The notes beneath the pieces were generated by a model, which was not told the DNA's origin, did no database searches, and saw only the letters and a program-made list of their open reading frames with translations. Made by a program: the position numbers and the translations under genes. Shown here one piece after another: positions 11,201 through 15,483 of a stretch of DNA of 64,000 nt. Within the stretch, counting starts at the first letter, position 1, and the number at the start of each line of letters is the position of its first letter. Source of the stretch: Holtermannia corniformis (Eukaryota > Basidiomycota > Tremellomycetes > Holtermanniales); the NCBI GenBank assembly GCA_001599935.1, contig BCIJ01000001.1:560277-624276 (forward strand), read 5' to 3'.

Positions 11201-13389
11201 CCCATCGACCGCACGCATGCTCCAGCACCTGCATCAACTCCGTTCCGCCTCGCCCTCGCCCAGCCCCGTCCTCCAACCAGGTGAGTCCAATGCGTGTCCC
11301 TTTCCGGGGGCACTATGACAACCACTGCGGAACACCGTCTCATGTTGTCGTCTCCCATGTGCCCCCCTTTCCACCCCTACGCACGCAATGAAGCATATCG
11401 ACGATTCTGATGAACCGAACCCTGCTTTCGCTTCATCTCTTCATGCCCTTACGACACTCGACACGCACAATCCACCATTGCATAATATCCGACCTAATCC
11501 CGGCATCCGACATTGGCGTGCACCGTGAGTTTGTCGAGTAGCGGTGATCGTGCAAGTTGATGACGGCGCCATGTAGATGATCAGACTCAGCGCCGGCTAT
11601 AGATCCTGCACATCGCGAGGCAGAATTCCCAGCTTTGGCGGTGCCATCGGCTCCACCAGCGCCAACACCTGCACCTGCAACGTCGACTGCAGCAGAGGCA
11701 GCTACGACCGCGTCATCCATCGACTCGGCACGCGTTCCAAAGGTCAAGAAAGAGAAGCGCGAGAAGCGCAAGGACAAGCTGGCGAGGGTTGCGGCCGAGA
11801 ATGCTGCCCCGGAAACACCGACATCGGCAGGCGACATGTTCAGCATCCCGACTCAGCAGGCAACACTGGCTGCGAGCCCGACACCTGTAGCTCCAGAGCT
11901 GGTCACGCCAGACGTTGCAAAGCCCGAGTTGCCGACTGAGCAGGTTGCTCTACGTTTCAGCACTGCAGATGTGGTGGCGGCTACCGAAAGGCCGTCGACG
12001 CCCGCGCCTGAACCTATCTCGGCTCCGTCGAAGCCAGCCGCTGAACCTGCTGTACTCGTCACGCCCAAGCCCATCACCCGCGCCAAGGTCCTTCGCATTC
12101 CGTCCATCTCGGCTACCCCTGCGCCAGCCAGGACGGCGACGCCAAAACCGTCTGCACCGTCTACTCCTGTTCCGACTCGACCGAGCACGCCTTCCCTTGG
12201 TGTTCCCCTGCCTTCTGCCTTTCCCGCTCTCGGCAACCCTGCTATCAACCAGATGACCCTAGCTGCGATTGGCAACGCCGCGTCTAGCAAATTTACCGCT
12301 TCGGTCGTGTCGACGTCCGATGCGACGCCCGCACCAGATAAGGACAAGAAGAAGCGCAAGAAGGGCGGTACAAAGGTCAAGCCGCCAGAGCCGCAAGTGG
12401 CGGTACCAACCATAGGCGAGCAACCGGCGTTTGCACCGCGCAAGAAGGAAAAGGCATACAAGCCGCCGGTAATCAAGCCGCCGAAACCCGCAAAGGTTGC
12501 GCCTGCTCCTCCGCCGGTACCTGAACCGCCTGTACAACAACGCCGCTACTCGGATGTTTCGATTGTCGAAGCCGATGACGAGATTGACGTCTACGAGGCC
12601 GATATGATTGATCAGGACGACGATTACCCGCCAGACCACTCGGAACCCGTGCCGATCTTGACCGTGGCCGAGATGCTCGCGCAAATCAACGAGGTTGTCG
12701 ACGTTCAATCGACTTCGTCATTCTTCTCGCCTCACGACATCAGCTCGCAGAGCTCGTTCGGGCTCGCGACGCTCAGTACCGCTGTGGCAGCGCTCACGGG
12801 CATCAGCGCCGACCAGGACGCCATGCTCGAGCAAACGCTCAAGGACGATCAAGCAAAGGCGTTACGTGACCTCCTGCACACTATGACTCGCGTCTGCGGT
12901 GAACAGTACAAGCTCTTCCCTGGCTCGCCCAGAGTTCTCGACTCACACTTTGTCCTCAAGGGTCCGAGGCAGAAGGTTGAGGGCGAGACCGAGGCTGCGC
13001 GCAAAGCCCGTCTCGCGCACCGAGGGTCAGTCGGTCGAATGCGCTGGGCAACGTGCTGATGAATGCTTAGTCCCGTTACGAACGAGATGATGAGGCTGCA
13101 AATGGAGAAGAGTGAGTCGTCCTTGCATACTGTGGATGAGAACTGACAACATCCAGTCGAGGACTACAAGGCTTCGGTCAACATGCACGCAATCCAGCAG
13201 ATGCTTGGCCGGTGCGCCGAAGAGAACCGCTTCGACATCGAAACTCTCGGCGATGGCTACAACACGGTTCACGAGCTCGAACGCGCGTGGGCGGCGGCGC
13301 GCCAGGAAGAGGCCGCCGTTGCGACCGAGCTGGACATGGTTCAAAGGGAGAATGCAAAGGTGTTGGCCGAGGCAGCGCTCATGTGGTGA
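8202..13389 (+). CDS. NOT4: NOT4, RING E3 ubiquitin ligase of the CCR4-NOT complex
   Basis: Ten exons: 8202-8378, 8610-8690, 8780-9040, 9098-9441, 9495-9601, 9652-10941, 10993-11280, 11603-13025, 13071-13111, 13157-13389, giving 1414 aa. Order of domains: C4C4 RING (DCLLCAEPLDLSD, CQCGLQICQFCYNKL, CPGCRRPY; about residues 64-110), a basic linker, an RRM (LVYVSGMKLP, YFGQYGKISKLSI, GIYITYVRREDAQRAI), then a CCCH-like finger (YCDSFLRGVKCDLAGCMGLHEW region). The remaining thousand residues are Pro/Ser-rich with a helical C-terminal end. This is far longer than yeast Not4 (587 aa). Frames join cleanly across all introns; the weakest joint is the 322-nt intron 11281-11602, so a split into two genes is possible. 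Confidence 0.85.
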
Positions 13390-13421: not shown

Positions 13422-15483
13422 TCATGCATACATCGCCGCTTCTGTGCTCGTCACTTGGCAGACATCCGCCTCCCATACTCCTCTGTACAGTCCTAGGTGT
13501 CAGCGAGCTCCAAACATCTACGAACGCGCACCTCAGAGCATTGAACCCGATGATGCGATCACCCCTTGACACAGCTTCGTGAAAGTCAGCGACCGTCACC
13601 TCGCCGATGCGAATAGTCCCTCGTTCAAGTAGTTCGGCGCGCGTGACGCCTTGCAATCCCGGCACAGCGTCGTCTGCCAGTCGCGGGGTAACCCAAGCGG
13701 GCGCTGATGGATCTCGTGCATCAGGCGCGTACAGCGCGATGTTTGAAGTGACAGACTCGGTCAAATGCGTCGAAGTATGAAGTAGCACCTCCGGGTGAGT
13801 GACTTGTAGCCCCACGAGTGCTACTACAGCTTGTGTCAGCGATAGTCGGCTGGAAAGTTGGAGAACGGACCACCGCGCTTAGTAGCGCCATCGTATATTT
13901 GACGATTCGTCGTCTTGTACATGAGACAGTCGGTCTCGACCTGGGAGGGTACCAGGTCCTTGGGGTCGAGCACGAGCGGTCGACGGCGAAAATTGCGGGA
14001 GTTGACATCCAACGAGAAGGGGCCTGTCATGTCGTCTTGAGCCCAAGTCTCACTGAAGCAAAGCAAAGCAACGCACCACTGTCTGCCGGCGCAGGAAAGA
14101 GTTCTGCTTTGATGAACCCTCCGGGCGATAGCAAGATGCGAAGCTGCCATGCAAGTCAGCCAAATGTGCAAGCATCTGACGAGGATACAAACACGATACT
14201 CATTCCCGACTTTGCCTGTGCCCGTACACGCCGCTTTCACAGCGTCCCACACGATTTCGTCGCCAGGCCAGTCGCCCCAAATGGCCTTGCCGTCTCTTTG
14301 TCTGTAGTGCGCTTGCGCAGTGCGCAAACGAGTGAGATGCCTCGCATATAGCGGGATGTCTTCGCGTTGCGGCGTCGCTGATGTCGGCGCATAACGAGCC
14401 GTCGTAAACAGAGAAAAGTCTGGAGCCTGTCATATGGTTCAATGCGATGCATATGCCAACATACTACGGGCTGACCTTGGCGGTCGAACCGTTCTTCCAG
14501 TTGAGGTCGTACGCGGCTCCTTGCTATCGACAATGATCAGTCATGGACTGTACACAAGGGGCCTCGACGAACCTTCCACGTCCACCCCTCAAAAGCGTCA
14601 AGCGCGACCCTGCCCCAATCTTTCGCATCCGTGCCTTCGTCAAGGTCAATGATTTTAATCAGGCTGAGGTTGATGGGCTGGATGAATCCCTCGTCCCGAG
14701 CCTGTTGGAGCAACATAACGATTGGGCTATAGAACCCCTTGACTGTGCAACAGGATCAGAATGGCTCTGGCGCTGTCGTCCCCTGCTGACCATTCAAGAC
14801 TACGATTGGCTTCTTGTGGATCCCAAGCTGGTTCCAGGTAACCATCTCCATCATCTGCCCGTGTGTTAGTCACCGACCGTCAATTCCCATTCATCGCGCA
14901 CCTCTTCGAAAGTTCCAAACCCTCCGGGCAGGACAAGGAAACCATCCGAGAGCGCTGCCATCCTCTGCTTACGCTGCACAGTATGTATCAGCAGCGAGTC
15001 GCGACACGAGCGCCTACTCACCGTATGCATGTCATCAACGAGCTCGAGCTCGATCCGACCATCCATCGAGTCCTCATTCTTGAGTGTCTGGTCGCCCGAT
15101 CCCTCGGCGCTTGCGACACCAATGCTCCAATTGGCCTTGGCTTTCTCCTTTGTAGTCAATGCGGTTGGTAGCACGCCGATGACTCGGCCTTGAGGGTGCT
15201 CGAGCGCTGCAGCGGCCGTCATGCCTGTGCCGATCAGTAAGGATTGTGCTCAAATTTAACGATCGTCCGCCCTACCCATCAAGCCACGCATACCACCACC
15301 GTATACTAAAGTGTAGCCATTGTCGGCAAGTGCAAAGCCCACCGATTTGGCAGCCTGTCCGTAGATTGGATCGCTACCAGGTGAAGACGCGCAGCTGAAG
15401 ATGCATCGTCAGGAACTGTCCCGCCGAGTGCCAGTGTCACGATCAGCTTACAATACGCAAACTGCCTTGGATTGAGCAGTCAT
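13422..15483 (-). CDS. LOG-family phosphoribohydrolase fused to 4-amino-4-deoxychorismate lyase
   Basis: Twelve exons: 15483-15452, 15394-15276, 15224-15022, 14973-14902, 14854-14791, 14742-14573, 14523-14476, 14426-14193, 14143-14077, 14023-13874, 13829-13532, 13482-13422, giving 505 aa. Residues 1-236 are a complete LOG enzyme (CASSPGSDPIYG, YGGGMRGLMG, RKQRMAALSDGFLVLPGG, GTFEE), a family that releases bases from nucleoside monophosphates. Residues 237-505 are a fold-type-IV PLP lyase like yeast Abz2 (FSLFTTARY, MYKTTNRQIYDGA with the likely PLP lysine, LTESVTSNIALY, GFNALRGVWEADV), which makes p-aminobenzoate for folate. The joining intron, 14475-14427, is phase 0. If it were retained, LOG would end at a TAG (14466-14464), but the lyase part has no ATG of its own. 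Its 3' end faces NOT4 with 32 bp between. Confidence 0.8.

Follow-up and report, generated by a model that had tools for sequence, protein, structure and literature searches.

The aminodeoxychorismate (ADC) lyase of yeast, Abz2 (4K6N), is a 383-residue chain with no LOG domain, and the type-I LOGs of solved structure (5ZBJ and 5ZBK from Pseudomonas, 5ITS from Corynebacterium and 5AJT from Claviceps) are chains of 203–274 residues with no lyase domain. Yeast LOG1 (YJL055W), of the same LOG family, is a single-domain protein. Here we describe a gene on the minus strand of a 64,000-nt stretch of Holtermannia corniformis contig BCIJ01000001.1 (hereafter the window) that very probably encodes one two-domain LOG and ADC-lyase enzyme. 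In the mechanism that we propose, the N-terminal LOG domain would convert nucleoside 5'-monophosphates (prenylated or non-canonical) into free base and ribose 5-phosphate, and the C-terminal pyridoxal phosphate (PLP) domain would convert ADC into p-aminobenzoate and pyruvate for folate synthesis, the two domains being tied by a short flexible linker.

The LOG half has the PGGXGTXXE motif and the catalytic and prenyl-site residues of the type-I LOGs, and the lyase half has the KTTxR motif in common with Abz2, its nearest solved class-IV relative by profile. Fungal LOGs joined to a second enzyme are also found in the prenyltransferase-LOG fusions of Fusarium, Claviceps and their relatives (P0080 and P0093; numbers of this form are our own handles for proteins), in which, by precomputed domains, the partner is instead an isopentenyltransferase family domain. 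LOG likewise comes first, followed by an unrelated partner, in the LOG-ABC ATPase fusions of Ustilaginomycotina (P0019, P0021, P0023) and in P0025 (named CAF16 by one source), and a GYxxW-like tail follows LOG in P0019 and P0023; the partner in these proteins is, however, an ABC ATPase. LOG-ABC ATPase proteins occurred in Kalmanozyma, Testicularia and Exobasidium and, by precomputed domains, in Sporisorium and Melanopsichium, and represent a second LOG-first fusion in Basidiomycota. Because LOG has these other fungal partners, the case for the lyase as a functionally special partner is weakened.

Gene model and two-domain relatives

The 12 exons of the H. corniformis gene spliced to 1512 nt with no internal stop, encoding 503 residues and a stop (minus strand, 15483–13422), and were separated by 11 introns of 47–57 nt each. 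The features of the locus are as follows.

13422..15483, minus strand: whole fusion gene, 12 exons, 503 amino acids and stop, homologous to 17 two-domain proteins
14476..15483, minus strand: LOG half, residues 1–236, with the PGGFGTFEE motif; exons 1–7 at 15483–15452, 15394–15276, 15224–15022, 14973–14902, 14854–14791, 14742–14573 and 14523–14476
13422..14426, minus strand: predicted ADC-lyase half, residues 237–503, with the presumed PLP lysine K373 in KTTNR; exons 8–12 at 14426–14193, 14143–14077, 14023–13874, 13823–13532 and 13482–13422
14476..14523, minus strand: exon 7, 48 nt long and flanked by phase-0 introns, encoding the LOG C-terminal tail AAYDLNWK
14427..14475, minus strand: junction intron, 49 nt, phase 0, GTCAGC...ATGACAG, holding the LOG-only stop and lacking the CTRAY branch-point motif
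14420..14489, minus strand: alternative junction intron, 70 nt, GTTCGA...CTCCAG, in phase, giving WKN-D-FSLF

Pfam matched PF03641 at 116.6 bits (cut-off 27, residues 50–196) and PF01063 at 33.8 bits (cut-off 28.5, residues 370–487) in this single protein. An earlier note on this DNA had placed LOG and ADC lyase on one strand between the outer coordinates 15483 and 13422, joined in phase by a 49-nt intron with donor GTCAGC and acceptor ATGACAG, and the spliced model agrees with each of these points, as both domains lie in one spliced open frame above the Pfam cut-offs. Its count of 506 codons has to be corrected to 504, including the stop.

A whole-protein search, in which scoring was confined to the 7993 candidates with the most words in common, returned 105 proteins, and 17 of these had both domains. 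All 17 were from Tremellomycetes, from nine named genera and one Tremellales isolate: Cryptococcus (2), Kwoniella (7), Tremella, Naematelia, Kockovaella, Vanrija, Trichosporon, Cutaneotrichosporon and Cryptotrichosporon, and the isolate itself. The best of them was 46% identical over 97% of the query. Domain order was the same over the full length, and query coverage was 95–98%, with the exception of Kockovaella (80%), whose model lacks the LOG start. PF03641 was matched by all 17 and PF01063 by 16 (E ≤ 0.001). By taxonomy look-up, Vanrija, Kwoniella, Cryptotrichosporon and Kockovaella belong to Tremellales or Trichosporonales, and the remaining fused genera presumably belong to the orders that we assigned to them; judged from these models, the fusion extends across both Tremellales and Trichosporonales.

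The models of 16 of the 17 relatives had no methionine between the WG motif of LOG and the first lyase strand, Kockovaella being the exception, and the C. neoformans and C. gattii models kept an alignable linker. The counts for the linker methionine and for the LOG tail depend on the splicing predicted by the depositors. The stronger support for the fusion would appear to come from its recurrence together with this methionine-free linker. The earlier note had regarded the fusion as unfamiliar, but these 17 proteins were already in databases, under names that included lysine decarboxylase, TIGR00730, LOG-type, cytokinin riboside phosphoribohydrolase, uncharacterized and hypothetical. The titles and abstract openings found by full-text search, which left subscription papers mostly outside reach, described no such fusion, and ABZ2 is treated as a general fungal target in the accessible part of PMC6023522. 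The fusion is apparently a variant so far undescribed in the literature, though present in databases.

Splicing at the junction and the case for separate genes

The donor hexamer GTCAGC of the junction intron is also that of intron 5, and a further in-phase donor at 14466 (GTAGTA) adds VSP. In dinucleotide shuffles of the junction (n = 2000), the frame was interrupted in 1574, of which 899 allowed an in-phase join by a GT-AG intron of 40–75 nt (580 by one of 45–58 nt). As so many interrupted shuffles were joinable, the in-phase joinability of the two halves is little above chance and is poor evidence for fusion; what raises the fusion above chance is that it recurs in 17 relatives. When the junction intron was retained, LOG ended in STAKVSP, with the TAG at 14466–14464. 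As the earlier note had it, this stop precedes the lyase exon by 37 nt and no in-frame ATG lies ahead of that exon, the preceding codon being CAG and an in-frame TGA lying two codons upstream.

Several observations weigh against a single fused enzyme. The evidence for the fusion consists of gene models and sequence, here and in relatives, and a single transcript and protein are predicted from these models, those in the relatives' records included. The CTRAY motif, which was present in nine of the ten other introns, starting 13–21 nt from the 3' end of the intron (its rate in shuffled introns was 0.094), was missing from the junction intron. The LOG tail GYxxxW was missing before the lyase in three of the 17 models (P0001, P0010 and P0016), the other 14 keeping it, and the lyase half, searched as a single sequence, matched yeast ADC lyase weakly (E 0.012). 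In addition, the annotation of some relatives contained just one of the halves. The entries of Vanrija pseudolonga (P0120) and Cutaneotrichosporon cavernicola (P0117), whose congeners V. albida and C. spelunceum have the fusion, were LOG-only, with tail and stop, and that of Kwoniella sp. B9012 (P0106) was lyase-only. Among the best 120 of 7488 matches, LOG-only annotations also came from Filobasidium, Mrakia and five species of Naganishia. Taxonomy look-up placed Naganishia and Mrakia in different Tremellomycete orders from the fused genera, and we take the same to be true of Filobasidium.

Two further points of this kind came from the host genome (20.2 Mb, 55 contigs), in which all PF03641 matches and all lyase-half matches lay within the fusion gene and DHPS was clear. 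The PF01063 search, made exon by exon, matched the fusion gene only and did not recover a branched-chain transaminase. Such an enzyme is expected in a fungus, so absence in these searches is weak evidence. Pieces resembling ADC synthase were found below cut-off, and they prove little because the same model also matched below cut-off in all 14 control genomes.

A rather unlikely alternative is that the one locus has two products, LOG alone when the junction intron is kept and the fusion when it is removed or exon 7 is skipped. Its length of 48 nt and its phase make exon 7 skippable in frame, which left an open frame of 487 amino acids and a stop, and a tail like that of exon 7 was present in the free-standing LOGs P0111, P0112 and P0113. 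The junction intron lacks CTRAY, and the end produced by its retention resembles the Naganishia LOG ends YNLQWKEEGK and YNLQWKEHK, each also followed by a stop. Furthermore, the V. albida model (P0010) runs from EWEFP straight into the lyase, and the LOG of V. pseudolonga (P0120), which closely resembles it, has the tail and then a stop. The intron-retention switch suggested in the earlier note is thus compatible with the sequence and with the LOG-only models in two congeners of fused species. Against this, the comparison is again one of gene models, the tail is retained in most fused models, and intron retention may be noise. CTRAY is likewise missing from intron 9 (14076–14024, minus strand, within the lyase half), which ends in ATGACAG as the junction intron does. 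Two-product splicing refines, and does not contradict, the reading of the gene as encoding one two-domain enzyme. It is unlikely, on present evidence, that a splice switch conserved in Tremellomycetes at the LOG-lyase junction tunes the ratio of LOG alone to bifunctional protein; if it did, a weak junction intron would govern p-aminobenzoate, and hence folate, alongside nucleotide clean-up, because the lyase lacks an independent start codon.

We consider it quite improbable that LOG and ADC lyase are truly separate neighbours whose predictions are merged by an artificial, stop-skipping intron. The joinability of the shuffles would allow such a merger, the three fused models that skip the LOG tail could be forced merges, and LOG-only and lyase-only annotations exist among relatives. 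Five candidate 5' exons for a separate lyase, in phase with the lyase acceptor, lay within 200 nt; two of these begin at ATG 14628 in a frame other than that of LOG, with introns of 142 and 127 nt. However, the other three start at 14716, within LOG and in the LOG frame, and the 37 nt from LOG stop to lyase exon leave the lyase without an in-frame ATG and with the upstream TGA. The predicted absence of a linker methionine in 16 relatives and the linker retained in both Cryptococcus models also argue against separate genes. Separate genes in related species, which the earlier note had set against a fusion, were found in part, as LOG-only (P0120, P0117) and lyase-only (P0106) entries, and these stand at annotation level; they could reflect isoforms, choices made in annotation or genes that really are separate. 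A search with the lyase half returned seven proteins, including ones from Kwoniella and Kockovaella. P0109 (314 amino acids) is a lyase without LOG that has about 64 open residues before the first strand, possibly with its own start or possibly an unspliced reading. A scan of viral contigs yielded no relative of the fusion.

Predicted activities of the two domains

The PGGFGTFEE motif, R119 and E142 (catalytic), and M116, H117, K120, E145 and W149 (prenyl site) were all present in the LOG half, each assigned by matching its spacing to that of the residue set given in the accessible part of PMC4979012. These residues, the prenyl-binding set included, were nearly invariant across the aligned fusions, and the domain should therefore cleave nucleoside monophosphates. 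The best solved relative of the LOG half was 5ZBJ (E 1.3e-41). The NCBIfam scans covered relatives (five in all, four with the lyase half) in place of the window protein. TIGR00730 was passed by P0001, P0003 and P0010, and the same three proteins, at 89.6–91.8 bits, did not reach the 300-bit cut-off of the cytokinin LOG equivalog NF058542; the free-standing Naganishia LOG P0111 likewise scored only 95.3 bits. The original function of LOG proposed in the available text of PMC5940212 was the breakdown of non-canonical nucleotides.

The second half is supported as an Abz2-type ADC lyase by profile comparison, which predicts that activity. In profile searches made with the relatives, yeast ADC lyase 4K6N was the top solved structure in two runs (E 7.9e-17 and 8.5e-17), followed in the second by 3QQM (1.4e-8), 3CEB (6.8e-4), the Pseudomonas ADC lyase 2Y4R (0.056) and branched-chain transaminases (0.32). 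The class-IV PLP fold covered the full domain. K373 was invariant in the 19 alignment rows, and KTTxR and other residues were invariant across the family; from the class-IV pattern, K373 is the presumed PLP lysine. TIGR03461, which represents proteobacterial PabC (cut-off 176.85 bits), was matched only by P0106 among the five relatives scanned, at 15.8 bits. An AlphaFold model of the relative P0001 (mean pLDDT 83.4, pTM 0.53) had two folded domains, with pLDDT below 50 at residues 83–103 (within LOG) and 231–240 (linker), and its halves matched LOG structures and class-IV enzymes in structure comparison. That the lyase half is instead a class-IV PLP enzyme of other specificity, such as a D-amino-acid transaminase, is very improbable, given how far ahead yeast ADC lyase stood of 3QQM by profile, although in structural Z 3QQM (function unproven) scored 24.0 vs 22.7 for 4K6N.

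Phylogeny, genomic context and significance

In LOG trees, the window protein fell outside a clade of fused Tremellales and Trichosporonales (support 99/96 in the first tree and 99/94 in the second). It was unplaced in the first tree and was set beside Filobasidiales in the second, with a support of only 51/61. A single clade of 14 fused rows, the window protein and the two LOG-only congeners, and with it one origin of the fusion, was not rejected (p-AU 0.33). The second tree omitted the Bosea, Nakaseomyces and P0118 rows, and P0007, P0014 and P0015 were in neither tree. Next to the gene, a plus-strand open frame at 13147–13389 with no Pfam match ended 32 nt from the fusion gene stop and may be a convergent neighbour.

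Bacterial LOG neighbourhoods were studied in 28 draft genomes, mostly of alpha- and gammaproteobacteria, taken from 28 of 80 LOG loci retained out of 189. A pabC above the TIGR03461 cut-off was found in 10 of the 28, and none of these 10 shared a contig with an above-cut-off LOG. In two Stappia-derived genomes (G018 C4:251136–253691 and G019 C5:48575–51529; loci L073 and L075), LOG and a weak class-IV match, far below the pabC cut-off, shared a strand and were separated by about 2 kb. As the bacterial neighbourhoods show no linkage, a functional link between LOG and the lyase is without independent support. To our knowledge, the LOG and ADC-lyase reactions have no metabolite in common. For both of these reasons, coupled expression or stability, or an old read-through fusion that became fixed by accident, is likelier than substrate channelling. 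We infer single-chain translation in H. corniformis, both activities in vivo and any benefit that the fusion may bring.

If confirmed, these findings would place an ADC lyase of Tremellomycetes in a gene where it is concealed from name searches by the names in use (lysine decarboxylase, TIGR00730, hypothetical), and would bear on folate-pathway models of these fungi. The fusion would also provide a defined gene for asking whether folate supply in fungi is physiologically linked to nucleotide clean-up by LOG.
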